Shown one piece after another: positions 239 to 56,148 of a DNA stretch of 64,000 bases. The stretch lies in NCBI RefSeq assembly GCF_018873765.1, contig NC_057916.1:25033001-25097000 (forward strand), read 5' to 3'. Source of the stretch: Telopea speciosissima (Eukaryota; Streptophyta; Magnoliopsida; Proteales; Proteaceae). A program made the translations under genes and the position numbers. Numbering within the stretch: position 1 is the first letter of the stretch; the number at the start of each line of letters is the position of its first letter. A model generated the notes under the pieces. The model made no database searches. It saw only the letters and a list, made by a program, of their open reading frames with translations, and had not been told where the DNA came from.

Positions 239-2522
239 TCACAGCTTGATATTACAGGTGAACATTTTGAGATGATTGATGCATCTGAGCACCAGGAGGA
301 ACAAAACCAGTAAGGCCACGATTTTGAAAATCATAAATATGAGCCTAGTGTCTGTCCCAACTGAAAATATACTTTCCATTCTTTTAAAACAATACCTCGC
401 GTCCTGCCTTATCATTTTCTCTACATCAGTTACTTCTGGGGCTGCAAGATAAAACCTTACTTCTTGCTTTTTTAATCTGATTCTCCGTTGTGCTGTACCT
501 TGGCTAGGAAGCTCCGAAGCCTTCATTGCATTTTCCCTCTGTTTATATGTTCTCTCAATCAGGGACATCTTGTCGATTTTTGGCAACAATGAAGGACTTT
601 CTCGCAGTGAAGAGTAATCAAGTTGGATGATATCCTCATTCAAAATATCAGCAAAACAATCATCTTCTGCGTCATGATCCTGAAATTGAGGAGTAAATGC
701 CAGGTTCAATTTACAGAAAGATATTAAGAAGGATAAGGTAAACCATGAAATTTGTATCTTCATAAGAATTCTTGGTAATAGGAGAATATGACAAGATGAT
801 TGAAAGGTAAGATCAGTTAATATTCCTCTTCCTTAGGATTGGAAGAAGCTATATAGGAGAATCGAACTTGTATCTTTGTGGAGAAACAAAAAGTTGGTTT
901 CGTGCATGAGATTTAAGCAGGCATTTCCGTTTAGGACTTGCAAAAGAGAGAAATGTGATGTGAGGGATTGTAGGAAAAAAATCTTCCATTGAAAACTCAC
1001 CATGCTGAGGTGATGAAGGTTGGGAAGTTCTTGGTTATATCAGAAATTAGTCTATTGAATCAGACAGAATATCTAGATCATACCTTTTGGCCAGAGCATT
1101 CTCCATTCTTTTGAACGGATTCAGATGTAGATTCACTTTGTTCTATAAAGAGGGTATCCAAAGTGCTGCTTTGCTTCGTGGATAAACATCCTGTTTCCTC
1201 AACCTCTTCTCCCATTCTTGTCTCTGCCTGCTTCATTACATTTCCATGGTGGTTCACAACGGAAAGACCAGCATCTGTCGCTGCAAAATCTCCTTGACTC
1301 ACTGAATTGCTGTTTGAACTATCATCATTTGCTTTAATTGGAACTTTTTTCCGGAGACGACAGACGACAAAAGAATCCTGCAGAAGCAACAATCCCAGAT
1401 CTAGATCAGCAGATGTTAACTAACATCTTTCTCTAAAATTATTAAGCATGATTCGAGGATATAAGCAATGAAAAGTGGAAGTGGTAAACATGTTTCTGTA
1501 ACTAGTTCCAACTCCAACCCTTGGCATTGAAATTATAGAGTTTAGGAAAGGAAAAGGGGTAGGGGGCGAAATTCCTCAAGATCAAATCTGCACAAGGGAA
1601 ATCATCATGCATGGATAATCTTATAAGAAGGTATCCTCAACAAAAGTAGTTTAGTGAGCACGAATATCCTTAAGCAACAATCATTTACAAGCAAATCCAG
1701 TGATTGCAATCTAACACGAATCATAAGGAGTTAGACACTGGCATTGCACCTATAATTTAGTTCTGTGTGTCTCAAGGGTTCTTTGTGTATGTGACTGCAG
1801 CTGATTAAGGAACAAGACTTGTATAGAAAGTGAAGCAATAAAGCACATAGATAATCAGCATAAATGGAGCAAGGGTTTTAGGATCTAAGGATTGAGTTTC
1901 AGGACAAGGGGGTCAGATAGGTGAAGGAATATACATAGTATATACCTGGCCTCTGCCTTTGACAGTAAATTCGTGCATTATCCAATGCGTCCTCTCCCCA
2001 TCAGGTGCACGGCCGATGTGGAAAACCAGAGTTCTTTTGGTTCCAATCAGATTAGAACCAGACTTGACGTCACGCTCTTTCCCAGTTGCTTTCCAGTATC
2101 CCACCGTGGTTGCCCTCTTCGTTTGCGACCCATTTGGGTATTTCTTGCCTCTAGGGCAAAAGAAGAACCATTCGTTGTCTGATGGGATGATGGACTTGTC
2201 TGGTTCCGAAGAAACGAAACATGAATCAGGAATAAGAGAATTGCAAGAAAACTGCTTAAATTCAATATCAAGGCTTAATTATGTAATCGAACTCTGTTTT
2301 TTCCTAATGGAATCTCTTGTCTCAATTCTCACCTGGTAGGTCCCAAGGTTCGAATCGACAGATGTCAACTTCAGAGATCACCTGGACGCTCTGCTCCAGC
2401 CCATCAAGCTTCCGCTTCAAATAATAGGAAATCAATTCTTCGTCAGATGGACAGAATCTAAAACCAGGAAACACAGAAGTGTCCACCGTAGAACTCGAAC
2501 CATCCCTGAAAGACAGAGGCAT
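239..2522 (-). CDS. Membrane-tethered NAC transcription factor (NTL; NAC089/NAC040-like)
   Basis: Four exons on the minus strand join in frame: 2522-2333, 2199-1946, 1377-1084 and 679-239, giving 392 aa. Each junction has GT-AG borders and matching phase. Exons 1-2 carry the NAC domain: [20 protein letters not shown], then [42 protein letters not shown] and [19 protein letters not shown]. Exon 3 begins with [11 protein letters not shown], the end of the domain. Exon 4 has an acidic [12 protein letters not shown] patch and ends in a hydrophobic helix at about residues 358-379 ([20 protein letters not shown]). The family's one-pass C-terminal anchor holds the factor in the ER or plasma membrane until proteolysis or re-localisation sends it to the nucleus. 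An in-frame ATG eight codons upstream (2546) would give 400 aa; I chose 2522 because the family's variable N-terminus is short, but this is uncertain. The membership call rests on remembered family sequences; the NAC domain itself is beyond doubt. Confidence 0.93.
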
Positions 2523-2738
2523 CTCCAACAACCCGCAGACACACAAACAGAGAACTCGCAGTTTAGCACACAGAGGGGGGGGGGGGGACGAAGCAAAAAC
2601 AGAAATTGATGGCTTCGCTAGTTCGATTCCAAGGGATTTTTGTGAGACTTGTTTACGTCAGGGTCTTCGATGGTTCTCCTCCCAGGCAAAGAACAGAATC
2701 AGAAACATTCTTTCGTGTCCGCTACTCCGCATCGTCTT

Positions 2739-14379: not shown

Positions 14380-17300
14380 ATGGAGATAGAACCCGCCGGC
14401 AATGCGGTTGGGACTCTGCAAACGGCTAAACGCCAACGAATGCACATAGACCGTCACGTAACGGTCGAAGGTCGCGACAGGAGGGTCAGAATTCCTGTAA
14501 CCTGTGCTTCTGGCATCTTCCGTCTGACTCGGGAACTTGGTCACAAATCCAACGGACAAACGATTCAGTGGCTCTTGGAGCAGGTTCGCCCTGAACTCGT
14601 CATCCCCAAGCCCAAAACGCTTCCTTCCAAGAGACTTTCGGCCGGGAACTCCGCCAACGATTCCGCTCCCAAACCCATCTCTATCGCTTACCCTGAACCT
14701 GAAGACAATGCTAACGACGCCAGGCTCATTGCTCTTCTACCTGCTCCTGAAGACGCTGAGCCGGTGATGTCAGCCGGAGAAACCGTCTCAAGGTTTGACG
14801 CGGGATGTCCTCGTCCGACGGTTCGAGCAACTGTTGTGCAGGCATCCACTGTCTTCTATGATATCCCCGCGACATTAGGTCCTTTATTCCACTGTCATTG
14901 TTTTCTTTTTCTTTTATATTCTTATTCTCTCTGGATATTATTTGACTATTTTGAGCAATTCTGTTGATAGAATTTCACCTTGGTTATTTGCATTGATAGT
15001 CGATTAGTTTTCTAGTGTTTGAGGTTTGGACCATAGGACTGACTTCTTGTGAATGCCGTGTAAGCGGAAAAGGAGGTTGTTGATTTCTCATTGAGGTGTC
15101 CCCTAGGTTTACTACTAAGATTTTATATGAACCCAGTAACTTGGTTAAAGATTTGATGGCAGTGCCTTCTTGCAACGTGTTTCTTTTGATCACTGCATTT
15201 TCTTTCTGCGGGGTTTTTTTTCGCCCGGGGGGGGGTGGTGTGGTGCCATCAGTTGACCGGTTACTGATGGGTGTAGAGGGTTCGTCATTGCACAAATCAA
15301 AAAGAGATCCTTCATCTCTTACTTTCCCGTGGTCTGACATTTGTCATATTGGGGCACTGATGGAAGAATACCAATATGTCTTAGACAGCATATTTTCCCT
15401 CCCATCCCCTTTCCACACTCAATTTGTTTATTCAACAACTTGGTGGCACGAATCCCTTCTGATCTTGTTTCTGTGGAAAATGTTGCGTTGTTGGCTTCCT
15501 CAAAGGTGGCATTTTCAGCATTTCTATCATGTGCTGGTCACTGACAATTTGAATTTAATTGCCTGTCACTTGAACAATAAAATGAAGAGCATTCCATTGG
15601 GTTCTCCATACATCTAACTTATTTAAAACTAAACAGAACCTTCACTGCTTTCCTTGATTAGTGGGAACATTACATGGGATGAACATCTATATAAAGCAAC
15701 AAAACGAATGATAGCTGTTGGTTTTGTATGTCTATCCATCATTTGAGTAATCGATGCCTTTTGGGCTGTTGCAGCTGCCACATTAAACAAATTATTTTTT
15801 TCCCTTTATACTTCATATAAAATTGATGCTCATGTGTGGGCAGGTTGATGCAGATTCATCACCTAATAGGGCTTGTTTCATTGGGAATAAGTCTAGGGTT
15901 GGGTTACATACATGTTGGGCCTTTGATCCCATGGGTTTCTAATGTGATAGGCCACTTTTATGGGCCTAAAATATGGATAAATAGGTTGCATACGGGATTA
16001 GCTCCCATACTTGGCTTTTTATTTGGTGTTTTAAATTGAACCGGTTCAACCAATGGTTCAATTTAAGTGATTTTATTAGTTTTTCTTTTAGTTGTTTAGT
16101 TAAGCTGGATTAGGACTCTATTTTGAGTCTATTTCAGTTTCCTAGTCAGTTTACGTTAGTTAATAGGTTAGGGATAGGATTAAGCCTTTCCTTTTTAGTG
16201 TCTAAGTCTATTTTTGAGTCTTCTATATAAGTTTGTAAGGAAGGCCAGCATTGAATACGAATTTTGATTAATAAAAACTCAGCTTTATGCTTGCTGTCTT
16301 TGTTGCTGCTATTCTCTCCTATGAGATCTAGTCTTGTGAGTCATATCAAGACCCCCCTTGTGAGTCATATCAAGGATTGAAGGACTGGAATCCCCAGTGA
16401 GTAGTGACTCCTTGCATCTTGAAGATCGGGAGGTTTCTTCTAGTTTCAAGTTGCTACCATTATTCTTTGCAATCCAGTGAGTTTGAAGTTGTCATTTTTA
16501 TTTTAACCTTCTTCTTCTAATCCTCTAACCCTAGCCTACCTATACTGTTCAGCATTCCCCTCTACTAAACCTAGCTTCCATTAAACCTGCAACTCCCACC
16601 TTCGAATCATAGCTTAGTTTCTAAGCAACCATCATCCCATCATCAGATCTGTCCCAAACTTTCAGCATACATCCACCACACTCCCCCTACACTCGATCCT
16701 ACTTTCAGCCCAATCAGACCACTCAAACCCTAATCCCCCTAATCTCCCATAAAACCCAAAACCCTAAAAACCATTCTAAATTCTATCTAGCCCTAATTAA
16801 CCATCAAAACACCAGCAAAGCCTGATCGAGTTACCCCCCTGCTGCCAGCTACACTCGATCACAAACCCTGCCCCAAAGCCCCTTCCTAAATCCTAGAATT
16901 AGCCTAATATCTGAAACCTAAAATCCTAAACCTATCCAAACCCTACTTTCTTTATACCATATTAATCCCCTAAACCTACATATTAAAACCATATATAAAC
17001 CATACCTGAATTCCTAAGCCTAACCCTAATTTCATCCTAAACAATCCACATCTGTAAACAGTTACAGAATTCTGTTTTTCCTGGTTCCTATTAGGCCTTG
17101 CCTATATAGGACTACATTACAGGTCAACAGAAAGGTCTGAGGAACGTTATGACTAAAGTTTTTGTTGCCAGCAAATGCACTTCTTTTTTCGCCTTCTTTC
17201 ACATATGCTTTTGTAATTGTCACTATGAAAGTTGGTTTTTTATCAGAAAAGATTCTCCTACTTGTGCAAGGACTCATCATTTTAGGTGAAATGAGGAAAT

Positions 17301-20300
17301 CCTCTGTCATTAAAGTATTTTGTTGGAATTAAACTAAGAATATAGAACTTATCTTTATATGCTTAATTCTCTTGAATGAAACAACCATGAATAGTAGGAG
17401 ATGATGATACACAAACAGGGTCACGAATAAAACTTGGTGGGGCTGACTCGTGCCACTAGTTACTCTCCTAAAGATTGTAGTCGCCTCCTATGATGCAATA
17501 CGGGTACTTGCGAATTGACCTCCAAGATGAAACATCCCCTAAGGCTTTCCAATGGTTGTTGCACTCACTTACTGGGCAACGTTAGGGCACTATCAGGTTG
17601 GGCTCAATCAACCAAAATAATTGCACTGAGGAACTTTGAAAAATTGGTATGTAATAAGCCAAAACAAAGAGAGCATGCAAAGAGCAAGGGAGAGAGATTT
17701 TTAGCACTTAGAATGAATGAAAAGAGAGCCAAGAACGCCCTCTATTTATGGAGGAAAGTAACCCCTTGAAAGCACCTCTACGAAAGGAGGTGACTTCTCA
17801 AGAAACTAGGCATTACTAGCTCAGAATAGGCATTGACCGGCACCCAAAGAGGACAATCAGCGCCGTCAATACGCCAACTGGTGCCAGCCAGCCAACCGTC
17901 GACACTGGAGAAGCGTCGGATAGAGAGGTAGGAGAGTCGGCGGGGGTCCTGACAAATCCCGACATCTACTGAAGAGAGCTTGCTTCAGAGAAGCGTTGGG
18001 CAAAGTGCATTCGATGATGACGAGGTTCCCTTCAATGCCGGATAGAGAGTAAGTGAAGCCGGATAGGTCCCTAACCATAGTTGTCAACGTGTCGCTAGAC
18101 ATCCTGGAGCCTTGGTCGCCTAGGCGGGCCCCTTGGACATCTTGGTCACCTAGTTGGTGTCACCTTGATTTTGGACCCTCTCCAACGCCTTGGGTCGCCT
18201 AGACGCCGTGAAAACTATGTCTCTAACAACCCCTGACACAAGAAATGTTCTGACCGGCGCTTGACGCCCAAGAGCTGACGTCATAATATGAAACTTGGGT
18301 GTCGGAAAAGTCCTATTGGACGTTGGCCAAAATCTGGATCCATATCCGGGTCTGGAGCATATATATATTAATGACTCGCCACACCACGACCCGATTTGGC
18401 TCAGCGCGCGCACCCTCATGTGTGAAAAACACCTTGGACCAATCCCAAACGTGAGGGAGGAGAGATACCTCTCTTTAAGGAACCTTACCGTTGTAGTTCC
18501 CATTCCCATACATTAACCTCTCTTTTTTCTCATCCACTTCCAATGTGAGACTAAAGCTCCCACACAAACAAAATGTGCTTTACAAAAGCAACATCCAAAA
18601 GTTAAACCTTGTGGGAGGAAAAAACAAAACCAATTTTCAAAATGTAAATTATTGTAACTTTCATTGAAATTCGTTTTACAACATATTTAAATACATATAT
18701 TAATTGATTTGGTTGCATCTGTCAAAGTTGCAGTTGGGTAAGTATTATGAAGAGCTTAGGACATCAAATTGCTTATTGGAGCAATTGAACATTTAGTGTT
18801 GAAAAGGAATTCTTTTGCTGCTTTGCGGAGGCGATATTGCTGTGCAAACAAAGCCCCCCCCCCCCCTAATGTAGTCCTAGATAGGTAGGAGACCTACTAG
18901 GAGCCAAAACAACAGGACCAAACAGCCAAAGGGGTTGCTGGTTCGAATGGACAGCACTAGGATTTAGGTTAATTCTAGGGTTTAGGAGAGGAATTTGGGA
19001 ATGGGTCTTATATAGTTTTAATATGCAGGTCTAGGGGGTTATTATGGGATAAAAATAATAGGATTTGGTTAAGTTTGAAAAATCTGCAGAATTAGGGTTA
19101 GGGTTTCGGGTTTTAGGTTTTAGATTCTAGGCTGACACTAGGGTTTTAAGATGGGAGTTTGGACTCAGGTTTCTGGTCGAATTTTCCAATGAGGGGGAAG
19201 AACACTCGATCAGAACATGGAGGGGAATTGATGGGCAGAAGTGACTGATCTGGGAATCCTAGAGTTTTGGGGTTTTAGAGGGATGAGGGGATTAGGGTTT
19301 AGAGTTGTAAGTTGGGGCTGAGAATGAGGGGGTTGTGTTTAAAGTTTTAAAGGGCTTGACTGTGAAATTTAGGCTGGACAGACTCTACATGGAGTTAGGG
19401 TTATGGGGGTCGATTAGGGTAAGCTGGAGGAAGAAGAAGAAGATTGTTAAATAGCAGAAACTATAAAATACTCACTGGGTTTTGTAGATCTGCAGCAACA
19501 ATAGCTTGAAGAAGCTTGAGTGAAGAAGAAGAAGAACCTCCCGGTACTGGACAGACGCAAGGAGTCATGAGAGTCCACTCACCCTAGCACCTTGAGATCC
19601 ACAAGGCAACACTCACACAAAGGGAGCAATGGCAGCAGCAGCAAAGGCAGCAAAGCAACGAAATATTTTTTCAAAATAAACTGTGGGGGAGCCTCTCCCA
19701 CGATTCTCTTATTAATAAGGGCCTAAGGGCCAAAACAGAATACAATTCAAACTCTCCTTCATCAATCGTGAATGGGAGTAGCTAGATTAAAATAACTTAA
19801 ACTTAAAAGGAAAAGACTCATCTACCCCTAATAACTTAAGACAACTTAAAACAACTTAAATAAAAGATACCCTAGGAACCAATAAGAATAAAACAATCTC
19901 AGCCTATAGGATTATGTCCTTAAGGCTGCTAAAAAAACTAAGTATAGAACTGAAATAAACTATCCTAAGGGCCAAAACAGAATACAATTCAAACTCTCCT
20001 TCATCAATCGTGGATGGGAGTAGCTAGATTAAAATAACTTAAACTTAAAAGGAAAAGACTCATCTACCCCTAATAACTTAAGACAACTTAAAACAACTTA
20101 AATAAAAGATACCCTAGGAACCAATAAGAATAAAACAATCTCAGCCTATAGGATTATGTCCTTAAGGCTGCTAAAAAAACTAAGTATAGAACTGAAATAA
20201 ACTATCCTAAGGCTCCTACTAAAACCCTAGGTTCAGGGTGGCTTCCTCAATTCGAGGAGGCTTGGATCTATGCCAACTCTCTTCGATTTAGAAACATTCA

Positions 20301-23300
20301 TCTCTGATGAATGGGTGAAATCCATGCAACACTCTTGCAACTTGGAGCTGAGCTTCTTGACATCATGAGTAGGAGTCCAAGTGCTACGTTGTTTGGAAGA
20401 AACCCGTCCATAAACTTTGTGACGAAGAGGGGGAAGCAACATGTGGGCAGAAGCTTTAACACTTCCCGGGCAGAATTCTGTTGAGGCTAGAACGGTAGGA
20501 ATATAGTCTTCAAGTCGTGGAGCCTTTTCTTCAAAGAACCAAGGGGGCATCACAAAATCTATGTGTTCAACCTCTATAGGGTCTTCAATGTTAACACCCT
20601 TCTCATTGAGCTCCACCTCTTCAAGAGTAGTAACTTGATCGTCATTGTCTTCCTGTGAAATGCTCCCAATTACCTCTTCACATTCAGCCACATCATTCAT
20701 GAAGACTGGAGTAATAATATGAGCGCCTCGAACATCACCACCCAAATCTTCAAAGTAACCATCTAAGTCTTCATCATCATCAAGGGGTAATGCATATATA
20801 CCATGCTCATCATCAGAGTTCTTCTCTTCCTTTTCAGCCACATTAACAGGTTTATGCTTTTGTTGGCATTCCTTGGTATGGTGGCCTAAATCATTGTAGG
20901 GATAACACCTGCGCGGGCCATTGCTGACCATAGGGGCTTTGCCCTTGTTGTCCACACGTGAGGAAGCTATAGGACGAGAAGTACTGCCATTTGAATAGCT
21001 TGATCATGTAGGGCCAGGCGGCCAGCAGTAGTGTTGGTAGACTTGGGGGCTGGAAAAGAGGCTTTGGTATCTTCAGTGGAGGAACCGACTTTTCTAGTCA
21101 ATAACTCTTCAGCCTTTAATGCCTTCTCAAAACAGTCCCGCACATCTCTGACATCAGTTACTCCAATACCTCTGATAATGTCATCCCTTAATCCCAGTCG
21201 AAACCGAGACAGCATCTGAGTATCACTTTCTCTGGTGTCAGTACGAGAAGAAAGAGCGTCAAACTGCTGCATGTACTCAGCTACAGTCATAGTCCCTTGT
21301 CGTAGGGAGTTGAGTTGATCTTGCATTTGAGATCTGTAATGTTTGGGCAAATATTTCTCCTTCAAGTCATACCTCATGTCCTCCCAATTAGTAGGTGCAT
21401 GACCTTCGCGTTCCATGTCTCTCTCTGTCTTTCACTACCATTCTCGGGCAAGGCCAATCAACTTGGTACGTGCCAGTCTCATCTTTCGATCTTCAGGCAA
21501 GTCATACCAGTCAAAATAATCATCCAGGGCAGCAAGCTAGTCTTAGAACACCTGGGGATCACGGTTCCCATCAAACTCCTTCAGCTCGAGTTTAACCTTC
21601 TGCGTATCATACCTCTTATTGGTGGCTTCATCAGCAGTGAAATAGGATCTCATGTACTCCTCAAAGTTAGGTCTTCGAGGTCCTTCTCTAATTCTGTCCC
21701 TATCTTCTCTGTAACCACCTCTGTTATGTCTTCTTCTGTCCCTGTGATCTCCACGGTTCTTGGAGTGATCTCTGTAGTCTCCATGTCCTCTGGAATGATC
21801 TCTGTGATGTCGGTTCCTTCCCAGAGTTCCATGTACTTCAGAGTGAACTTGAAACCTGTCCTCCTCTACATAAAGAGGGTTGTCTACAAGAGGCACAGTC
21901 TGCCGTTGTTCCATTACCAACATTCGATCACTAAGAGCTTGCTGTTCTGCTGAAATTTTCTGTAACATAGTCATAATTGCAATAAGGGGATCGGGTGGGG
22001 GTGGCTGTGTGGGGTCCACAACAGGGATGGGGGTGGCTGATACCGTAGTCCTAGATAGGTAGGAGACCTACTAGGAGCCAAACAACAGGACCAAACAGCC
22101 AAAGGGGTTGCTGGTTTGAATGGACATCACTAGGATTTAGGTTAATTCTAGGGTTTAGGAGGGGAATTTGGGAATGGGTCTTATATAGTTTTAATATGCA
22201 GGTCTAGGGGGTTATTATGGGATAAAAATAATAGGATTTGGTTAAGTTTGAAAAATCTGCAGAATTAGGGTTAGGGTTTCGGGTTTTAGGTTTTAGATTC
22301 TAGGCTGAAACTAGGGTTTTAAGATGGGAGTTTGGACTCAGGTTTCTGGTCGAGTTTTCCCATGAGGGGGAAGAACACTCGATCAGAATATGGAGGGGAA
22401 TTGATGGGCAGAAGTGACTGATCTGGGAATCCTAGGGTTTTGGGGTTTTAGAGGGATGAGGGGATTAGGGTTTAGAGTTGTAAGTTGGGGCTGAGATGGC
22501 AGTCGAGTGGAGGGTCTGCTGTGAGGGGGTTGTGTTTAAAGTTTTAAAGGGCTTGACTGTGAAATTTGGGCTGGACAGACTCTACATGGAGTTAGGGTTA
22601 TGGGGGTCGATTAGGGTAAGCTGGAGGAAGAAGAAGAAGAAGATTGTTAAATAGCAGAAACTATAAAATACTCACTGGGTTTTGTAGATCTGCAGCAACA
22701 ATAGCTTGAAGAAGCTTGAATGAAGAAGAAGAAGAACCTCCCGGTACTGGACAAACGCAAGGAGTCGTGAGAGTCCACTCACCCTAGCACCTTGAGATCC
22801 ACAAGGCAACACTCACACAAAGGGAGCAATGGCAGCAGCAGCAAAGGCAGCAAAGCAACGAAATATTTTTTCAAAATAAACTGTGGGGGAGCCTCTCCCA
22901 CGATTCTCTTATTAATAAGGGTCTAAGGGCCAAAACAGAATACAATTCAAACTCTCCTTCATCAATCGTGGATGGGAGTAGCTAGATTAAAATAACTTAA
23001 ACTTAAAAGGAAAAGACTCATCTACCCCTAATAACTTAAGACAACTTAAATAAAAGATACCCTAGGAACCAATAAGAATACAACAATCTCAGCCAATAGG
23101 ATTAAGTCCTTAAGGCTGCTAAAAAAACTAAGTATAGAACTGAAATAAACTATCCTAAGGCTCCTACTAAAACCCTAGGATTAGGGTGGCTTCCTCAATT
23201 CGAGGAGGCTTGGATCTACATCACCCCCCCCACCACCATGTTTTTCTTTTTGACATTTCTTGTTTGTGTGAGGGGCTGAGATTCAATTCACTTTTTGTGG

Positions 23301-26300
23301 ACGCCAGTTTTTTGATAGTACCTTGCCTAATTACTTTCACATTTCCACATTAGGGTCACAAGAAAGTACTGAGCTATTTTGGGAGTTGATTGTTGGAGCA
23401 ATGTGTACATGGAAGGAGGCATTGGTTTTGAACTTATGAGTACTTGATAAATATGCTGAGAAAACATTCACACTCCCTGGTGAAGGTATTAATTTTATGT
23501 TTGGATTGGATGTGACACTTGGCTTACTGATCAGTGACTGACACTAAGCTATAGGAGTGGGTTTGAATATCATATCATCATGTATATTTTTGCCGAGTAA
23601 ATTATAAAGGAACTTGTGCTTCATATAAGGCATGCCATTTCTTCAGCATTATATGTTAGGATCTGATCATTACCAAAAAAAAATAAACTGTGTCAGAGGT
23701 ACACAATTTTTCTTGTAATACCATTTTATGTTATACTTTTATAGTCATAAAACACTTTGCACTCATCTTTGATGTATTTTTTTTTATCCAATGAGAATTT
23801 TATAGGCATATTTAATAACTCTAGCTTGACATAGTGGTTTAAAGGATAGTAATGCAGTGCTAATCTCAAACCAGTGAGATCCAATTGGAAATCAACTTCC
23901 AACAGGATCGCAGGTGAGGAATGAAATCAGATTTCCGAAGAATTTTAATAATAGAGAATGAAGGAATCAGATTCAGCCTAAATTCTGGTCAAAGGCTCTA
24001 ATTGGATGGGTGAATATAGTATTAGAAATCAGGCTTGATCCAATGGTCAAATTCTTAGGCCCTGAAGATTCTTACTTGACGAAGGAATTCCTGAATCTGA
24101 GAATCGATGGAAGGTTTAGACAAACCAGATTTGAGGTTGATTTCAATACCAAATAACAAGCCTAATGAAGTCAGAAATCTGAGATGAGACTTCGAAAGCA
24201 GAACTTGAAAATCGAATAAACTGAAATCAGAAAAGAAATTGATATGAAGGGAGAAGAGAATTAGAAAAATTATACATAGAATTCGAGAGAACAAGAAGAA
24301 CAGAAAAGAAGCGAGGAAATAACACATCTGATCTTAGAGATGAACAGAACAAATCTGGAATTCCAATCCCGTTTGCACAGCTCAACGACCCCAAAACTCT
24401 TGAAAAAAAAACTCAATTTTTTTTAGTCAAATCATGCTTTAACTGATGTGGGTGTATTACATGTATAAAGACCTTTTAAAAATCCTAAATTGACTCATAA
24501 AAGGACTCCTAATCACTCTCACACACTGAATAAAGTAAATAGACTCAAAACATAACTCTTAAAAGCTATTAATTATCCTAATCTAACTCAAACACTTAAT
24601 TATTAATTTCGTGTACTAACTTTACCCTCACTTTATAATTTTATAAATCAGGTCCACTACAATGAAACCCAAGAAAATCAAAGGCTTAACCTGTAATATT
24701 ACTACCCAAAGCTTAATTTCCGCCCACTGGACTGCCACCAGCAGGTTATGGACCTCCAAACTTGCATCTAGGCCTTCATACGGGATAAATGTCTAATGTA
24801 ACTACATCAGATAGAGCATCTTCTGAAGTAAATGAACCATTACAAGGTCTTATTATTTATTGTTTGTTTGCAAGTGTTGGCTGTTATGCTATATTACTTG
24901 TGTTTATATTGAAGCCTACCTATTGATCTTGAGAGTTTATGGTTCTATTGATGGGAATCTTGCCCATTTCCCAGCATCTCTACAACAGGACAGTTCAGAA
25001 TTCAGATCACTTGGTGCTTCTCCATGATCTGTTCGAGTGAACTCCACCTTCCGCTGTTATTAAGCATAGAGATTAGAGCATACTTCTGTGTTCTTAAAAA
25101 ATTTCTTTGTCGTCTCTTTTTCTTATTTTATTTTATTTTTAAATTTAATTTTGTTCGTAGTAACAATGCTCCCCTTTGTTATTGTAAGCAGATAAAGCAG
25201 AAAGATTGATTGCAGGTGCTTCTGCTTATGGCTCTCAATTAGTTGTGTTTCCAGAAGAATTTGTTGGTGGTTATCCTCGACGCCCTCATTGTTCAAACTT
25301 AGATGTTCCGACTGGGATGCTACCAGCTGAGGGGAACAGTGAGTTTCTGAAGTATCATGCCTCAGCCATTGACGTGCCTGGTGAGATATCCCTTTTCAAT
25401 CAACCGCAGCATTTGATGTATTGGCATAATCTGGGAATCTGGTCTAAATATCTACCAGAAAATCTCCAACAATGGCAGTAACTAATGCAGTGAAGTGCAA
25501 ATAGTAAATTAGCTGGATCGCCCAGAAAACTTGATCTGATCTCATGCATTTGAGTTTTCTGCCATGATCAAAGAAATAATTGCCTGATTTATCTTATAAA
25601 CTCATCTTAACATTTATTCTGGATTCATGATCTGCTTGGTTATTCCCCTCAAAACTCCCTACACCTGCAACAGAAAAGTAGAAACATAAAATGGAAATGA
25701 AACTTCAAGCCTCCCTTACACATTAGGCTTTTTTTCAATTTGAAAAACAAAAAGAATAACCCTGTTTAATATCAAAGCTAAGCTTCATTGTTAGATGCAA
25801 ACCAAACCAAATCACAAAAAGGAAGAAAGAAAATTGAAAAGTTTTCTACACCAGTGGGTTTAGAGGGTATCTCTTCACCAGCACCCAAAATTTTGCCACT
25901 TGGAAGGTGATGTTGCAATTTCAACTATAGGATATCTAGGTAATGGTGTGAATTGGCCACACACCTAATTTCAGACTCAGATCCAGTCATATCCACCATC
26001 CCATGTAATGGCAACTGTCCTGTGTAGGTCCATGCACCTCTCTCCATATTTGGTAGTTTTCAAGGTAGTCTGGAATTTTCAATGCTTTATTTTGCCACTT
26101 GCCTACAATACTCCATTCTTAACCAATGTGCCACATGCATACCTTGGAGTGCTGGTGTAGAGATACAATTTACACCTGCTGGTGTAGAGAACTTGCCCCC
26201 TTTTCAAAATCTTGAGTGGAATAACCAATGCTTAGTTGAAGGTAAGCTGAATTAGGTGACCATGGGGGAATGGTCCAGGAATGGTTGAGAGTTGGGAGTC

Positions 26301-29300
26301 ATAATTGATTTGATTAGAGGATTAGAGAGGTGAAATGTTTCCTGCATGCCTTCTACTTTTTCAGCCATAATCGATTTGCCAAGGGCTGACTGTTGGATAC
26401 TAGATAGCTTTGAGACCTCTCTGATATGCCACCTATCAAATTTGGTAGCCTATTTTAATTGTATGGCCCCTCATGTATGGGTTTTCCCCTTGAGTTTTTT
26501 GAATTTTCCTCGTAAGTTTGTAATGAAACATTAGAATGTCAAATGAGTCAAAATTTTAACCATGTATAGCATAGTGCCGCCTTGGCCGTCTAGGCGGGTG
26601 CCTTGGATGCCTTGGTCGTTTATATGGTGTCACCTTGCATCCAAGCCCCCTCCAACGCCTTGAGTCGCCTAGACGCTGTGACAACTATGATGTATAGATA
26701 ATGATGTGGACAACATGTCTACAAAATTTGGGTCTAAACCAAACTGCTATGTGGTAGTTATAACTTATAAGGTTGTGCACTAATTGGTTCCAAGTACAGG
26801 CATGCAGAAATATGCTCCCTCGGGGTTAACACATTGGATGGTTACATTGAACATTGATTATTGGGCATACACATAGAGTTTGAAAGTCAAGATTGGCATT
26901 TCTCTGTCAGCTATTTTGTGTCACTGTTGCCTTTTTTGTTAGACCCTTGTCTCCTCTGATGGAGAACAGCATGGAATCCAATTTTATTGGATACGTCTTG
27001 GGAAATCCAAGTCCCTTTAGCATTAGTTGAATAGCTAATTTAGCTTGGGCTGGTGTTATGATATACTTGATCTTCTAGGAGTTTGGGACTGCTATTGAAC
27101 TGTGAGATCATGGACATGCTTCATGGGCTTTGGATCTCTCATTTCTTTAGGTGCAGAGATTGGTTATATAGGGAATTGCAGCTGTGCTTACTGGATGGTT
27201 TAGTACGGATTCCAGGGGTGCAATGGATTTTTTTTAATCTCTTTTTCAGCATCTTTGATGACCGTCTGTTCAATTGAATACAAGGACTGCCAACTCTATT
27301 GCTGGTGACTTAGCTAAAAACAGAAGAACTCAGGCTCAATATGTATCCAGGCTATCTTGATCGATGGAGCACAGTTTTATTCTTGTTCTCTTTCTAGTAC
27401 TGTTATCCCCCTTCCTCATTTTCACCCCCAATCTAAGGGAGATTCTTTGTTTTCCCATTTTACTCTGAAATGTATGTAGCTGAAGGGTTATTACAGCTGA
27501 CAATTGAGCTCTAATATGGGAACCTGGTAGGCCTGTTATCTGTTGTTATTCTCTATAGCATATTTTTATCCATTTTTGTCTTCACCGAAAAATGCTTAGT
27601 GAATGTGATGACGCATAATTTTATTTCTAGAGATGTACCAAATAATGTCAATTATGGAAATCTCTCTTAGTCACACAGACACACTTGCAAACCCTCAACC
27701 ACTGTAATGTAGTCCTAGGTTTGAATAGTCAAACTAGGAACCAAATAACCAGTATCTGATCAGAACAGTAATTCGTCTAGGTCAAATTAGGGTTAGGGTT
27801 TAGTGGGTCTAGGGTTTGATGCTAGGGTTAGGTCAAGAAGATATTGGGGAGTCTTCCAGTGAAGGTTATGTTAAGAATTAATGGATAGAAGGGTGCTGGA
27901 ATGAATCAGCAGCAAGAGAATGTGGTTAGGGTTTGGGTTTTGTAAAGAGGGAGGTTTGGGATTTCTAGGGTTTAGTGTGGTCAGAAAGGACCAGCCTTGG
28001 ATCCAGTTCTCTATGGGGGCAGAGGAGAATTCGATCCAAATTTGGGGTGGTTTCTATGGTTGGAATGGGCTGGGGAGATCTTAGGGTTTTGGGAAAACAA
28101 GAAAAATAAGGTGGATTTAGGGTTTGGGATGTTGAGAGGATTAGAAGAAGAACGGCTGGGGTTTGGGATGATTCAAACTTACTGTTGTTGAATCAGTACT
28201 TGGACAGCAGCTTGTTTGCTTTAAAGATCCTTGAAAATCAGAACTTGAACAATGTTGAAGAACAAGAGAGCTAGAATGAACCACCCGGGCTTCACACCGC
28301 AAGGTGTCGACTGGATCAAACATCAATCCCACCAGCCTTGATCAAAGTCATCAAACACAAGACAAAAATCTTCAATGGAGAAGAAGAGCAACAAAAAGCT
28401 TTTCATTAATCAAAATTCATGTTCAACACTCTCCCCTTACAACCTTATATTAAAGACTCAAAAATAGACTCTTACACTAAAAAGGAAAGGCCTAACCCAA
28501 TCCTTAACCTATTAGGTAGCCTAAACTGACTAGGAAACTGAAATACTGAAGGAAATAGACTCAAAACATTGCTGGACTTATAGATTCCTAATCCAGCCCA
28601 ACGTACATGACAATTAAATAGTCACATGACCACTTAACCAAGTCAAATGATCACTTAAGTGATCAAATGACCACTAATTACATAAAAATAAAACTAAAAA
28701 GAACTAAAACAGCTAATCCCGTATGCAACCCTATTACCCATACTTTAGGTCCATAAAAGTGACCTATTACATTGGAAACCCATGGGATCAAAGGCCCAAC
28801 ATGTATACAACCCAACCCTAGACTTATTCCTAATAAAACAAGCTTATTTCGGTGTTGAATCTGCATCACACTGCCACCACATTCAGTTTCTTTGATGAAA
28901 GGGTTTCGGTTACATCAAAGAAATGGTGATGGTCATGTAACAGTCAATTCTGATGGCAGAGAGGACTCACCCAGCTCTGTCCCCCTCTTCTTTTTGTTTT
29001 GTTTTGCGAATGTGAATTTCTGAGCATTGTGATCTAAATGGCCATATCACTCTTCAATTGTTAAACAAGGTTTTGTTCTTATTACAGTGTATTTTCCTGC
29101 TTCTGTTCTTCTAAGTGTGAACTATATTTGATAAATGTCATCTTGATTTTGTTCTGATTCTGAAATTTTGTGGAAACAGGTCCTGAAGTTGACCGACTTG
29201 CTGCAATTGCTGGAAAATATAAAGTTCATTTAGTTATAGGAGTGGTGGAGAGAGAGGGATTCACACTTTTCTGCACAGTTCTGTTCTTCAATTCACAAGG

Positions 29301-32300
29301 CCAGTATCTTGGGAAGCACCGCAAGTTCATGCCCAAATCATCAGAATGCATGGTATGGTGTTCTGGGGAGAAAACGACGCCGCCTGTGTACGAGACATCA
29401 ATTGGGAAGATAGGCGGTCTTATCTGCTGGGATAATAGATTGCCACTTTTAAGAACGAAGCTGTATGCTAGAGGTAAATCTTATGGAACTTGGATTTTGA
29501 TCCACGGTTTATTGTTAGAGAGTCAATTGGGACCTAATATGTTATGTTCTCAAGGATTCTGATACCATAAATCTCATGAGGCCTGTTGGTTGTTCCTTGA
29601 CAACATAGAAATTACAGTTAGAAAATCCAGAGATGATCTATGACAGGATTGGCAGTGTACTCACTCATTTTATATATCAAGCCTTTATTAATATTAAGTT
29701 CAAGAGGTTAGCCAGACCTCGTAATTGGGTGGGGGTATTGACCTCGGCCTGTATTTGCTTGTTCTTAATGAAAATCTTAAGAAACCCAACCATTTATATA
29801 GTCTCAATCTCAAGCCCTAGCCTAGCTAACCTTGGACAAGGCTTCGGTATCCATTATTCCATTATGCAAGTCCACCCATGGAGCCCTCCCCTCCCCCTAT
29901 GGCAGGCTCTAGCTAACCTTGGGCAAGGCTTCGGTATCCATTATTTCTTTATGCCAGTCCACCCATGGAACCCCTATGATAGGCTCATTAGGAGAGCACT
30001 ATGTAATTTTAATAGGATGGACTTTGAGGTGTTTGACGTATTTATATTATTTGTTGTTCAGCTTGAATTTCATGGCTTTCTGTTTGCAGTTCCACCTTTT
30101 TTTTGGGGCTAAATGACACCCAAGGTACCTAATGTTTTGGCAAATTGTAGCTTAGGTACCTGACATTTCACATATTGCATTTGGGGTTCCTAAACTGGAT
30201 TATAATTATTCGGTTACTCAAATTTTTTCTATTTCCAATTTTACTCTTGTAAATAATTTTTTTTTAATATGAAAATTTAGTGGGATCCACATCACCGTCC
30301 CTGCCTTCTCCTTCCTGCATCCCCACTGGTCCCCACCCCCTACTGCAACCCAACCCACCACCACGCCCCACACTCCCTGTCTCCCCCCTCCCTCTGTTCC
30401 TTCCCCAACCCCCACCCCTGTTTCAATCTCAGCCCCCCTGCAACCCCAAACCCCCACCCTTGACTCCATCTGGCCACACAACCTCCCTTTGCGACCCAAC
30501 CCCGTGATGCCGGCCCTGCCGCTACTCCACACCATCCCTATAATCACCTCAACCTTGCAAATACCAACCCTGCCCCACCAAAGAATATTCAAGTTTTGTA
30601 GTAGCTGATGTGGGTGATGGGGCTGGGTCATGTTTTCAAAGAAAACAAGGGCGGGGAGGGTGATACTGGCTTGTCCTTTCCCTCTTCTTCTCTTCCTCCT
30701 TGCAGCAGGCAATCCTGATGCAAGGGTGGGTTCGGGATGTTTGAAGGGTTGCTGCAGGGAGTGGTGTGGTGAGGGTGAGCGGAGAAGACGAGGGGGTGGG
30801 GTTGTTCGCAGGGTTGCAGTAGGTGTGTTTGAGGATGGGTTCAGGTGGTGCTGACGCACGCTCGTAGCAGGAGGTGGGGGTTCTTGGATGTTGTAGTCAT
30901 AGTTCAAAAACTCGTCGAGATCTCGACCTGGTCGGGATGAAACTGCATACGAAATATCAAACATGCATTGTTTCGATCGAGTTTTCCGAGATCTAGACTA
31001 TGGTGTCTATGACATATGTATTGTTCACTATACTTGAGTCGGGTGTCTATGTAGTATGCATTGTTACTTTGTAGTTTCTACTTTAAGTCTTTTACTATTT
31101 CTTAGATAATCATTCAATATTATGTGACTTCATCCATTGTTGCATAATTTACTTATTTTATTTGCCAATTATGTCTCGTAGCACTCAAACCATGTGTAGA
31201 ATAGACAATATTACATAAGGGTTCGACGTTTAGTGCCAACCAAGGGTGAAATCCAAAACACCAAATTGGGTGTTTTTTTTTAAACAATTTGAAGATTTAA
31301 ATATGTTTATTAAGCCTAATACAAGCTTCCCTTAAAGTTTCAGAGTCAACTATGGTCATTTGCCACCGGAAAAAAAAAATGCATTGTCTCGCCGAGATTT
31401 CGGTTGTCTCGACCAGGTCGAGACACCGAAACTAGACGAGTTTTTGAACTATGGCTGCAGTGGTAGCAGGTTGGACAGGAGGGCAGGCAGGCAGGCAAGC
31501 AAAGGGTGGGGTGGGTTTACAGAACTAGAAAACTGGTCTACCCAGATCCACTGGCTAACTGGTTCTCCTATGCTGGTACTTAATAGTGTACCTATGTTCT
31601 GCATCACTAGTCTTCCAACTTGGAGACCTTGTATTAAATCAGTCATATTTTTCTTTCTTTTTTAGGGGTGGAGAGGAGGGTTGATGGTTCTAATCAGCAA
31701 TGAAAGTATGTTGGCATTCATTTCATGTAGAAAGGGCATAATGAAGGAAATAGCATTTTTCATCCATTATCCGAATAAATGATCCAACAGAAGCACATAA
31801 TTTAGATATGGTACATGACAGTCATACAAACATACTCGGATGACTTCTTTCTGAAAGACCCCCAAAAGTCTCAAAGGTGCCATTGCATAGAATTCTATGA
31901 TGTGTGCTAGGGGGTGTATTGGGTGAATATATAAAGAGATCATTAGTTGGGTTGTTTAGAATCCATGCAGTCTCAACCAAGGCCATGAACTAGCCCTAGA
32001 CATTCCATGACATTCTACAATAACTTAAATGTTATTCACTTGAGGTACATCTATTGAGTGTATGATCTCAATGCTTTGTGAACAAATTCTTCTCTGAAAA
32101 ACTAATACCTTTTAAAGATCTATATCACTATGTCATTCTCATTTACCTCAAAAGTGAAACCAAACTTGAGTGGAAATAAATTTTGCCTCTTAAGTTGTCA
32201 TTGGATTGCAAATGGTCATTTCATTAGATAGTACAAGCAATTTGAAGAAATCAATGGCTGGGCACCTGGGCCTATCAATTTGTGTTCTTATAATGGTTAG

Positions 32301-33614
32301 ACGCTTTTTATTTTGTCCCATGATTTTGATGCTATGTTTGTATGTATTCCTAGGATGACTTCTTTGTTGTTCCTGCTGTATATTTAATCTCATTTGTAAA
32401 TTTCATCTCTGTAATGAGTTTCCTCTGTTCATAGGTATTGAAATATACTGTGCACCTACAGCAGATGCCAGTGATGTATGGCGTGCATCAATGACCCACA
32501 TTGCTATTGAAGGTAGCTGCTTTGTTCTGTCTGCGAATCAGTTCTGCCAAAGGAAAGATTATCCACTTCCAGAGGAATGTGTGTCTGAAGATGCAAACAA
32601 CAATCTCTCACCAGAATCTGTAGTTTGTGCTGGAGGCAGTGTAATTATTTCACCATCAGGCGTCGTTTTGGCAGGACCCAATTACCAAGGGGAGTCTCTC
32701 ATCTCAGCTGATCTAGGTATGGCAGAATTTGTTGAATAATTATTTGCATAACTGAGTAAAGTTTGAAATAGTATGGAAATTGGATAGTCTTTGAGGTTCC
32801 TCTCATTTTTTCCTTGGGGGCTCTTTGAGGTGCTCATTCATTGGCATAGGCACTTTGATTGAATGATGTTAATCTCCTCCCTGGTTGGGATTTTTTGGAT
32901 GGCTGGGAAGCATGGTGAGTATCCATGAGGGCACATTAAAAGAACACGGTGAAAGTCGATTGCTGGAGTACTAACAATCTTCTGATTAGGTACATCTGGA
33001 GCAGCCATGTTGGAGATGTCTCAAGTGTAAGACATCAAACGATTGTTTCATCCAAAATTCCAAACTCCATTGCATGTACTCCATGTGTTGGTAGGCTATC
33101 TTAGCAGTCTACGCTATGGGAACATGTAAAGGGGTCTACGTCTTTCTCAATTCTTTTACTCCAATTGATCTTGGACTTGGATCAATATTTATCTGAGGGC
33201 CATGTACATTGTAAGGGCCTATGGCTGGAGAATCCTCTGCTAACATCTTTTCATTGCTCATGTTTTCTTAATGAATTACAAAAAGTGAAAAGGTGCTTAG
33301 AGGGTTAACCACTAACATCAGACTCATTTATTACAAGACTTAGCCCTGTACGTGTTAACTTTTGAACACATCAACAATGAATGATGGCAGCAAAGCTCTC
33401 TCAATTAGCACATTTTAAACATTATAATCAAAACCATGTAATTCTTATCAGCTGTACTCTAATTTGTGTAGATCTTGGAGAAATTGCACGTGCAAAGTGT
33501 GATTTCAACTGTGGCAAACAAAGTGCAGCACACAACTCCCTTGGCATGATCAAGAATGACTATAATTCAGTTTCATTTGCAGCTGCGGTGAAAACGGAAC
33601 CTACCAGTGATTAG
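14380..33614 (+). CDS. TCP-domain-nitrilase fusion protein (NIT4-like), five exons
   Basis: Exons 14380-14878, 25192-25380, 29180-29473, 32435-32716 and 33472-33614 join with GT-AG borders (phase 1 throughout) to give 468 aa. Residues about 23-73 are a class I TCP basic-helix-loop-helix domain ([19 protein letters not shown], then [20 protein letters not shown]). The same open frame continues into the NIT4 N-terminus ([20 protein letters not shown], residues 147-165). The nitrilase core follows, with catalytic Glu188 ([11 protein letters not shown]), Lys278 (LGKHRKFMP) and Cys312 (GLICWDNR). NIT4 enzymes hydrate or hydrolyse beta-cyanoalanine in cyanide detoxification; TCP proteins bind GC-rich promoter sites. 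The last exon keeps DLGEIARAK but has lost the family's GHYSRP-type tail. An upstream in-frame ATG (14278) would add 34 residues; 14767 could start a nitrilase alone. The join is seen directly; that the whole protein is made is inference. Confidence 0.85.
14446..14598 (+). other. TCP domain segment of the fusion exon
   Basis: The segment encodes a class I TCP domain. The helix I-loop-helix II part ([20 protein letters not shown]) is nearly canonical. The basic part is altered: where class I proteins have K-D-R-H-x-K-V, this one has I-D-R-H-x-T-V, so two lysines are replaced, and GRGRR reads GRDRR. The IIAATGTGT-like stretch that usually follows class I domains is absent. TCP20-type proteins look closest from memory. 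Confidence 0.8.
15846..17119 (+). mobile_element. Solo LTR (TR-GAG-related family) with duplication CAGGT
   Basis: It starts TGATGCAGATTCATCACC and ends GGACTACATTA, flanked by CAGGT at 15841-15845 and 17120-17124. A TATA-like TATATAAG lies near 16225 and an AATAAAA near 16269. Its body matches the reverse complement of the element at 27705-28868 (for example GTTGGGCCTTTGATCCCATG). The ends are TG...TA rather than TG...CA. Confidence 0.82.
18076..18218. mobile_element. Mutator-like MITE, copy A
   Basis: It starts CATAGTTGTCAACGTGTCG and ends ACGCCGTGAAAACTAT, so the ends are inverted repeats. The flanks GTCCCTAAC (18067-18075) and GTCTCTAAC (18219-18227) form a 9-bp duplication with one mismatch. 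The internal CCTTGGTCGCCTAGGCGG matches copy B at 26570-26688. Confidence 0.72.
18867..20275 (-). repeat. 3' LTR of the TR-GAG element (1409 bp)
   Basis: It is the left copy on the plus strand, starting TAATGTAGTCCTAGATAGG. It matches the right copy closely along its length. It is longer because it carries a 242-bp tandem duplication (19722-20205). A minus-strand TATA-like CTATATAAGACCC lies near 19010. Confidence 0.85.
19722..20205. repeat. 242-bp tandem duplication within one LTR
   Basis: Units 19722-19963 and 19964-20205 are almost identical (one visible change, CGTGAATGG against CGTGGATGG). Both begin with CCTAAGG, which also follows the second unit, so the duplication has a 7-bp junction microhomology. 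The other LTR has one unit only. Confidence 0.85.
20233..22019 (-). pseudogene. Degenerate gag of the TR-GAG element
   Basis: The frame opens at 22019 ([20 protein letters not shown]) and has an Arg/His/Asp-rich stretch. It then shows the retrotransposon gag core in pieces: [10 protein letters not shown], then [18 protein letters not shown], then [20 protein letters not shown]. In-frame stops interrupt it near 21543-21530 (TAA, TAG) and 21439-21434 (TAG, TGA). A frameshift near 20970-21000 moves the rest to another frame (20955-20233). The zinc knuckle reads [14 protein letters not shown], so the second Cys is replaced by Tyr. A long acidic tail follows and overlaps the LTR start. It cannot make a normal Gag as it stands. 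Confidence 0.85.
22041..23223 (-). repeat. 5' LTR of the TR-GAG element (1183 bp)
   Basis: It is the right copy on the plus strand and ends ATCTACATCA. Against its partner it has a 28-bp insertion near 22495 (GATGGCAGTCGAGTGGAGG...) and lacks the 242-bp duplication. Its minus-strand 3' end reads CTACGGTA, overlapping the tRNA primer-binding-site match. Confidence 0.85.
23224..25191. other. Remainder of intron 1, no gene seen
   Basis: AT-rich intron DNA with no recognised element. It ends in a T-rich tract and the acceptor GTAAGCAG used by exon 2 of the TCP-nitrilase gene. Confidence 0.45.
26570..26688. mobile_element. Mutator-like MITE, copy B
   Basis: It starts CATAGTGCCGCCTTGGCCG and ends GACGCTGTGACAACTAT. 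The flanks CATGTATAG (26561-26569) and GATGTATAG (26689-26697) match in 8 of 9 positions. The internal TCCAACGCCTTGAGTCGCC equals copy A apart from one base. It lies in intron 2 of the TCP-nitrilase gene. Confidence 0.7.
27030..27365 (+). mobile_element. LINE remnant (end of RNase H region)
   Basis: A frame near 27265-27360 reads [19 protein letters not shown], the ANxxADxLAK-type end of the RNase H domain found in plant LINE ORF2 proteins. Upstream codons are interrupted by stops. It is a decayed fragment in intron 2. Confidence 0.5.
27705..28868 (-). mobile_element. Solo LTR (TR-GAG-related family) with duplication CACTG
   Basis: On the minus strand it starts TGATGCAGATTCAACACC and ends AGGACTACATTA. 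It is flanked on the plus strand by CACTG at 27700-27704 and 28869-28873, a perfect 5-bp duplication. It is the inverse partner of the solo LTR at 15846-17119 and shares the TGTAGTCCTAG end with the TR-GAG LTRs. It lies in intron 2 of the TCP-nitrilase gene. Confidence 0.85.
29825..29990. repeat. 87-bp tandem duplication in intron 3
   Basis: GCTAACCTTGG(A/G)CAAGGCTTCGG starts at 29825 and again at 29912, followed in both by ATCCATTATT and GTCCACCCATGGA. The units are close but not identical. Confidence 0.7.
30898..31453. mobile_element. Mutator-like MITE with CATAGTTCAAAAACTCG ends
   Basis: The left end CATAGTTCAAAAACTCGTC matches the reverse complement of the right end exactly over 19 bases, and a further TCTCGACC block is also inverted. 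The flanks TGTTGTAGT and GGCTGCAGT could be a decayed 9-bp duplication. No transposase. It lies in intron 3 of the TCP-nitrilase gene. Confidence 0.7.
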
Positions 33615-55060: not shown

Positions 55061-56148
55061 GCAGAAGCCAAAGACAACCTAGAATCACAATCAAGAATTC
55101 AAGTATTATTCCTACCCCTGTTCATAGCGCATGGCCTTGGCATTTGGTTCCTAATCTTCTCAAATTAAATTTTTTTTTTTTTTTTAAAAAAAATATTATT
55201 TTTCATGTATGGGATCTTGGGATTTTTGTTAATATTTAAATAAAAATTCAAGTATTAATGGCTGCCAGCAACCTAAACTCCTAAAGGTCAAGGCTTGGGC
55301 AGGGGAGGGTGTAGTGAGCTTTTGTACCTTTATGACCCTGACAGAGACTGCCATTTTAGGGGTCCAGCCGCCTAAGACACCACAGGTTGGGTTTGTGAAA
55401 TGGCTTTGTGGCCAATGTGAGGCCACCTAAATGGAATCGTAACATGTGTCCTTTCAGAGGGAAAGTATGAGGGAAGACTTTTCTTCTCTAACAAAAATTT
55501 TGCAACACAAGCCCTAGCCCCTAGTTGGTTTGGTACATTGAACCATGGTTGACGTTAGTGTGGCTGGATCGACTTCATGCCCAACTGGGTTTATTGCAAT
55601 CCCCCAGGATTTAAAAAATGGGGATTTGATGGACCAATCTCGATTAAGGCTTATCTAGATCAACTGATCCCATTCCAAAATCTACGGTTAAAACAACTTG
55701 AAGCTGTTTCTTTATTAAACTTACGGATTCAGATCCGATCTGGATAACGATTCCGGTTTTTTAAACCCTGCAAATTCCCATTCTCCACTCCCTAATCCCT
55801 GATTCCCTGGGGCCTACATGGGTGGTAGATGTCAAAACACCAAAACTTTATTAGCTGGAATCTAATGACACCGTGCCAATCCCTATAGAGAGTCATTATC
55901 CTAATCCCATCTCGTTATCTCCACCTCCACACCCTTGAATCCGTTGGATTCCAGTTTCCAAACGAACCTCTCCCTCTCTCCCTCTCTCTGAAAGTCCAGA
56001 AATAAGGTACAGATCTTGACGACAAGAAATATTCTTGGGTAGGGGAACAACTTCTGACTTTGATTCAGAGTTGGTACTGAACTTTGAACAATTAACCAAC
56101 AATCTTATCTGGGTAAACTAAAGAGTTCATTCAAGAAAGAAGGAGATA
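55061..56148. other. Upstream region of the S28 carboxypeptidase gene
   Basis: No gene seen. A CTCTCTCC pyrimidine tract lies at about 55968-55990, within about 180 bp of the start codon, and may belong to the 5' leader or core promoter. Confidence 0.4.

Follow-up and report, generated by a model that had tools for sequence, protein, structure and literature searches.

The BZR1-BAM proteins of plants (BAM7 and BAM8 in Arabidopsis) reportedly place a DNA-binding domain N-terminal to a metabolic enzyme fold with a regulatory role. A fusion within the nitrilase superfamily is NitFhit of the worm. The protein described here, in which a TCP domain precedes a NIT4-type nitrilase, may find its closest functional parallel in BZR1-BAM, since in both a DNA-binding domain lies in frame with an enzyme fold and is conserved across species; however, the domains themselves are unrelated, and for the TCP-nitrilase a regulatory function is a proposal. 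Like NitFhit, it is a fusion of a nitrilase-superfamily member, but NitFhit has Fhit as its partner and belongs to another branch of the superfamily.

In poplar, Gunther et al. (2018; PMC6196558) remarked on a TCP-like domain in the nitrilases PtNIT2 and PtNIT3. The architecture is thus known from at least one previous remark, and the statement in the initial annotation that no described protein combines the two domains is not supported. Expression of both poplar genes is given as seemingly absent from leaves in the abstract of that paper, and as very low, with transcripts slightly raised by herbivory, in its section 8. Like the family described below, PtNIT2 and PtNIT3 are NIT4-group nitrilases with an N-terminal TCP-like domain, and the poplar proteins P0132 and P0134 fell within the fused clade; unlike the Telopea protein, P0132 and P0134 have no intact basic arm. 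In the portions of PMC6196558 concerned with these genes, the domain is reported for poplar, and no wider family, age or comparison of motifs among fused members is given. Our search of the open-access literature yielded at least this one remark on poplar, and we found no account of a TCP-nitrilase family there; further papers among the matches, such as TCP surveys of poplar, Prunus and Rosaceae, may mention the architecture.

We lean, if only modestly, towards a gene of single origin that has been kept as a TCP regulator, in which the nitrilase would be a repurposed scaffold or sensor effector and not an ordinary beta-cyanoalanine enzyme.

Gene structure and domain organization

The window, i.e., the whole stretch of DNA analysed, comprised 64,000 nucleotides of the waratah Telopea speciosissima (Proteales). 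An in-frame fusion of a TCP domain to a nitrilase had been proposed for this locus, and the fusion is confirmed: five exons with GT-AG borders gave a joined, stop-free frame of 468 aa, and the translated frame was uninterrupted between the two domains. The TCP domain, the linker and the start of the nitrilase all lie in the open frame of exon 1; because the domains are joined inside one exon of raw DNA, the join is independent of any gene model. The features of the gene were as follows:

14380..14878, + strand: exon 1, with start codon, TCP domain, linker and nitrilase N-terminus (aa 1-166 and the first base of codon 167)
14431..14496, + strand: TCP basic arm (aa 18-39; aa 33, at 14476-14478, is Asp, against Gly in 111/111 class I TCP matches)
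14497..14604, + strand: TCP helices I and II, the dimerisation unit (aa 40-75)
14605..14817, + strand: fast-evolving linker (aa 76-146; 71 aa)
aa 97-105: P-K-P-I-S-I-A-Y-P stretch in the linker
14767-14769: Met130 in the linker, poorly conserved
25192..25380, + strand: exon 2, holding catalytic Glu188 (25254-25256)
29180..29473, + strand: exon 3, with Lys278 (29323-29325), Glu285 (29344-29346), Cys312 (29425-29427) and Asp314 of the altered C-W-D motif (29431-29433)
32435..32716, + strand: exon 4, C-terminal half of the nitrilase
33472..33614, + strand: exon 5, last part of the nitrilase with the C-terminal tail and the stop codon

Pfam assigned a TCP domain to aa 24-73 (58.7 bits against a cut-off of 23; E = 1.3e-15) and a CN_hydrolase domain to aa 149-429 (186.2 bits against a cut-off of 23.2; E = 9.3e-55). 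We placed a class I TCP domain at aa 24-74, with the NIT4-type nitrilase following after the 71-aa linker. The TCP segment, initially delimited as 14446-14598, was indeed present, although its limits are better set at about 14431-14604. Among solved structures, the TCP part best matched TCP15 (7vp3) by sequence and the nitrilase part Arabidopsis NIT4 (6i00), which aligned over query residues 140-458.

The catalytic tetrad of nitrilases is described in PMC6637149 as Cys-Glu-Glu-Lys. It was complete in Telopea, as in NIT4 (6i00): alignment to 6i00 and alignment of all the proteins collected identified Glu188, Lys278, Glu285 and Cys312, and the first, second and fourth of these had been correctly named in the initial annotation. 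Unlike NIT4, the Telopea protein had a TCP head, a changed lid loop, and C-W-D and W-C where separate NIT4s read C-W-E and W-G. Its basic arm was of the class I type, with both Arg15 and Cys20 (basic-arm numbering) present. In the AlphaFold model of the relative from Macadamia (P0003; mean pLDDT 53), good modelling was confined to the TCP helices, where aa 41-80 reached a pLDDT of 81-92, and to a few portions of the nitrilase; a Foldseek match of the model to 6i00 added little beyond sequence.

Distribution among plants

The same architecture was sought in relatives and found in 28 named genera. A full-length search gave 3213 matches; among the best 120, both Pfam domains were present in Macadamia (89%), Protea (83%), Nelumbo (65%), Liquidambar (65%), Macleaya (64%) and many rosids. 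A second search, with the TCP-linker-nitrilase start of the Liquidambar protein as query, gave 498 matches; 57 of the best 120 rows (including isoforms and several cotton species) carried both domains by a hand count of the Pfam column, and these represented the 28 genera. Fused proteins spanned Proteales, Ranunculales, Saxifragales and rosids, with poppies, lotus, oaks, cherries and cotton among the named carriers. Proteales, Ranunculales, Saxifragales, Brassicales (papaya) and Celastrales were verified by taxonomy; the other genera were placed in the orders to which we take them to belong. In the rows listed for poplar, willow, cassava, rubber, castor, papaya and flax, the TCP part was degraded and received no Pfam call. 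Fused rows from asterids, legumes, Brassicaceae, monocots and magnoliids were absent from the best 120 of either search, below which strongly decayed copies could rank; the gene therefore looks dispensable.

Conservation in 28 named genera speaks against an exon-capture relic, the alternative offered in the initial annotation, and we rejected this reading on one-exon continuity, breadth and the constraint reported below. Many of the source names for fused proteins were plain NIT4B-like; members of a chimeric family may be hidden in eudicot gene lists for NIT4B-like proteins and for TCPs. For one Fagus sylvatica protein (P0154), protein kinase domains were listed alongside a fused-type TCP domain, and its gene model may be a merger.

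Phylogeny of the two domains

We chose 35 fused and 30 separate NIT4 proteins from the two match lists, about one per genus. In the unrooted nitrilase tree, fused and separate proteins were split with a support of 100/100. The split was again 100/100 in the unrooted tree of a reduced set (28 fused and 28 separate), from which we left out Closterium, placed oddly in the first tree, as well as Linum, Erythroxylum, Carica, Salix, Castanea, Cannabis and two "lgn" sequences. The 100/100 values were read from the unrooted trees; after re-rooting, the labels 75.3/69 and 73/49 belong to other branches. In the TCP tree, built without Linum and Erythroxylum, 33 of the 35 fused domains were separated (97.8/100) from TCP15 and the 34 distinct domains of 111 class I proteins, a sample made up only of the nearest class I TCPs. 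These trees support a single origin for each half.

Regarding the parent NIT4, the fused clade grouped with Acorus (86.5/92) and then with other monocots (91.2/91), a placement that we treat with caution given the long stem branch. Macadamia integrifolia has both a fused (P0003) and a separate (P0044) NIT4, which means that the fused gene there is a duplicate and not the sole NIT4. The fusion would be about as old as the eudicots, i.e., more than 100 million years, if its occurrence in Ranunculales, Proteales and core eudicots is due to descent.

Changes in the nitrilase half

Motifs were counted in the 35 fused proteins and in 29 of the 30 separate NIT4s, Closterium being left out. The last residue of C-W-E was Asp in all fused proteins (35/35) and Glu in all separate ones (29/29); in a wider NIT4 set, C-W-E was found in 68 of 69 proteins. 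The Gly following Trp was lost in every fused protein with a letter at this position (34/34) and present in 29/29 separate NIT4s, and the Arg following the second Glu was present in 1 of 34 versus 29 of 29. Among the catalytic positions, Glu76 and Lys163 were retained in 35/35 fused proteins, the second Glu in 32/34 (Asp in the other two), and the nucleophile Cys197 in 27/35. The eight proteins without Cys197 were those of Durio, Herrania, Pterospermum and Gossypium (Tyr), papaya and castor (Gly), and rubber and flax (Ser). In the wider alignment, Tyr replaced Cys in 28 rows, all from named plants whose genera we take to be Malvaceae. Cassava and Mercurialis, which lie near rubber and castor in the nitrilase tree, retained Cys, which implies about five independent losses. 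Position 169 is one of three specificity sites of AtNIT4 according to PMC6637149; it was Ser in 32/34 fused proteins and Leu in 27/29 separate NIT4s. The lid loop differed in the eight fused sequences compared.

With nitrilase signature residues lost in nearly all fused proteins and the nucleophile lost in several lineages, the plain DNA-binding enzyme proposed earlier seems doubtful. We also think it rather improbable that the protein is a working nitrilase that hydrolyses a nitrile, perhaps not beta-cyanoalanine, and uses its TCP part only for nuclear targeting or assembly. Such an enzyme would account for the constraint on the nitrilase part and for the retention of Glu76 and Lys163 throughout and of Cys197 in 27/35 proteins, and Ser at position 169 together with the altered lid loop would fit a new substrate; it is harder to reconcile with about five losses of Cys, with a nitrilase still constrained in four Malvaceae that lack it, and with the alteration, in nearly all fused members, of motifs that are constant in separate NIT4s. 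The Malvaceae form, without Cys and yet constrained, is what one would expect of a pseudoenzyme inside a regulator.

Changes in the TCP half and evolutionary constraint

An intact basic arm, as defined by a pattern of our own, was found in 23 of the 35 fused proteins and was missing from 12. These 23 proteins had Arg15 (23/23) and Cys20 (22/23). As in class I TCPs (TCP15, 7vp3, and proteins that are TCP9-, TCP19- or TCP20-like by name), the Telopea protein has the basic arm with these two residues and both helices; unlike in class I TCPs, a nitrilase follows the domain and position 11 of the basic arm is changed to Asp or His in 19 of the 23 intact-arm proteins. Gly at this position, said to have been identified as a class I marker by Viola et al. 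in 2012, was found in 111/111 class I TCP matches and is missing in Telopea; the fused proteins had His (11, including Macadamia), Asp (8, including Telopea), Gly (3) or Asn (1). We take position 11, Asp in class II, to be the class-setting residue. That one residue of the basic region sets the site preference of class I versus class II is stated in PMC10049435.

Relative speeds were estimated at the protein level, with all partitions on one tree, for 33 of the 35 fused proteins (Linum tenue and Mercurialis left out), including the 23 with an intact arm; the linker served as a yardstick and is not a neutral standard.

Speeds in the 23 intact-arm proteins: N-terminus 2.50, basic arm 1.52, TCP helices 0.41, linker 2.34, nitrilase 0.51, C-terminal tail 2.12
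Mean pairwise identity in the same 23 proteins: arm 0.68, helices 0.73, linker 0.31, nitrilase 0.75
Speeds in the 33 proteins: basic arm 1.38, helices 0.60, linker 2.15, nitrilase 0.53
Speeds in four Malvaceae, all with Tyr for Cys: basic arm 0.57, helices 0.55, linker 2.88, nitrilase 0.51
Speeds in 10 of the 12 arm-less proteins: arm 1.95, helices 0.86, linker 1.95

A neutrally evolving TCP segment, which it had been suggested to look for, was not observed at the protein level: the helices were constrained (0.41 versus 2.34 for the linker, n = 23; 0.60 versus 2.15, n = 33), and were gap-free in both sets. The linker thus evolved 3.6 to 5.7 times faster than the helices, whose pace was about that of the nitrilase. 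In the 10 arm-less proteins the helices were still slower than the linker and the arm was not, so that the dimer unit is kept more widely than the DNA-contact arm. As a whole, the fused clade evolved 2 to 2.7 times faster than separate NIT4s (0.601 versus 0.296 and 0.589 versus 0.216 in two near-matched pairs).

These data bear on whether the protein dimerises with class I TCPs in a dominant-negative manner, with the nitrilase fold as bulk that blocks or sequesters them and DNA binding beside the point. The lack of an intact arm in 12/35 proteins, the slow helices in the 10 of these examined and the gap-free helices in 33 proteins are compatible with this role, which we nevertheless hold to be unlikely: the arm is kept in 23/35 and is as constrained as the helices in the four Malvaceae. 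A TCP regulator with a repurposed nitrilase is suggested by the helices being the most widely kept TCP part and by the retention of the DNA-contact arm in 23/35.

A linker motif occurred in 13/35 fused proteins, 0/111 class I TCPs and 0/30 separate NIT4s; its pattern was written after inspection of the sequences and is suggestive only. The Telopea protein has a C-terminal V-K-T-E (33588-33599), and many fused proteins have a SUMO-site-like V-K-x-E ending, which may be ancestral, as Vitis P0029 has it too.

Isoforms, start codons and transcripts

P0002, a database entry whose source name is Telopea speciosissima NIT4B-like isoform X2, was identical to our translation except for aa 167-187, and was reproduced letter for letter by dropping 25192-25254, with an acceptor AG at 25253-25254 within exon 2. 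The 21 residues removed lie in the core of the nitrilase and directly precede the catalytic Glu; not every transcript would therefore make a full nitrilase, if the isoform is real. Between the TCP domain and the nitrilase, 22 of 34 fused proteins, including that of Telopea, had at least one Met and 12 had none; in these 12, translation of an intact nitrilase must begin within or upstream of the TCP part. Met130 was rejected as a general start, given these 12 proteins and a Met at this position in 4 of 33 aligned proteins only (Telopea, Protea, one Nelumbo and Macleaya). An internal start may exist in Telopea itself.

Three database contigs of 1571-1690 bases carried full or near-full frames of 428-474 residues (P0016, P0032 and P0034) and would be transcripts, if their genes have introns as in Telopea. 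It is very improbable, in our estimation, that the gene is a slowly decaying duplicate without a role, retained by chance in some lineages: although the faster clade, the patchy presence, the repeated losses of Cys and of the basic arm and the very low expression in poplar leaves would suit it, the open frame, the constraint on the helices, which resembles that on the nitrilase in proteins of Proteales, Ranunculales and rosids, and these contigs of about 1.6 kb carrying the fusion without introns do not. Gene predictors do merge neighbouring genes, but an annotation or assembly artefact is scarcely credible and was rejected, the join lying within one exon of raw DNA and the same architecture recurring in database proteins of 28 named genera.

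A model for the TCP-nitrilases

If the gene serves as a regulator built on a TCP domain and a repurposed nitrilase, its history would have begun early in eudicots or before, with the in-frame joining of a class I TCP domain to a duplicated NIT4. The TCP part would form homodimers or pair with class I TCPs, and in proteins with an intact basic arm, such as that of Telopea, it would bind TCP-type sites, presumably in the nucleus. The nitrilase part would act as an oligomer scaffold or as a small-molecule-sensing effector of the regulatory output, and the protein of arm-less lineages would be a dimerisation-only TCP antagonist. Several results count against this model: catalysis is possible, with the nucleophile kept in 27/35 proteins and Glu76 and Lys163 in 35/35; the whole basic arm evolves faster than the nitrilase (1.52, or 1.38 in 33 proteins); many lineages had no copy among the best 120 matches of each search; the fused clade is faster; and expression in poplar is very low.

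A much more specific version is conceivable, though we think it somewhat unlikely to be right in full. Here, eudicot-wide nuclear TCP-nitrilases would have turned a filament-forming fold into a nitrile- or amino-acid-sensing, oligomerising effector of a TCP head with shifted site preference, would couple growth control by TCPs to cyanide/nitrile or asparagine status, and would have repeatedly become pseudoenzymes (Malvaceae) or DNA-binding-dead (Ranunculaceae, Malpighiales).

The Telopea locus thus encodes a conserved, probably old protein and no local accident, and in it an enzyme fold may have been put to new use within a regulator of genes. If so, it would be the second case, after BZR1-BAM, in which a transcription-factor domain of plants has become a fixed partner of a metabolic enzyme fold. 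The nucleophile and the DNA-binding arm have been lost separately in living lineages, so that the need for each half can be compared between plants.

Other features of the window

Intron 1 contained an LTR retrotransposon-like element (18907-23163), with direct repeats 98-99% alike and about 3.2 kb apart. Of the minus-strand frames between the repeats, one had a Retrotrans_gag domain; pol was not seen in the other two, which were scanned and had no Pfam match. Inverted segments of 172 and 111 nt, 87% complementary, linked 15832-16240 in intron 1 to 28435-28882 in intron 2 and probably represent a further repeat in two copies. Frames at 1916-2657 (- strand), which lie upstream of the fusion gene, carried parts of a NAC (NAM) transcription-factor domain, and a frame at 56122-56601 (+ strand) matched the start of serine carboxypeptidase S28.
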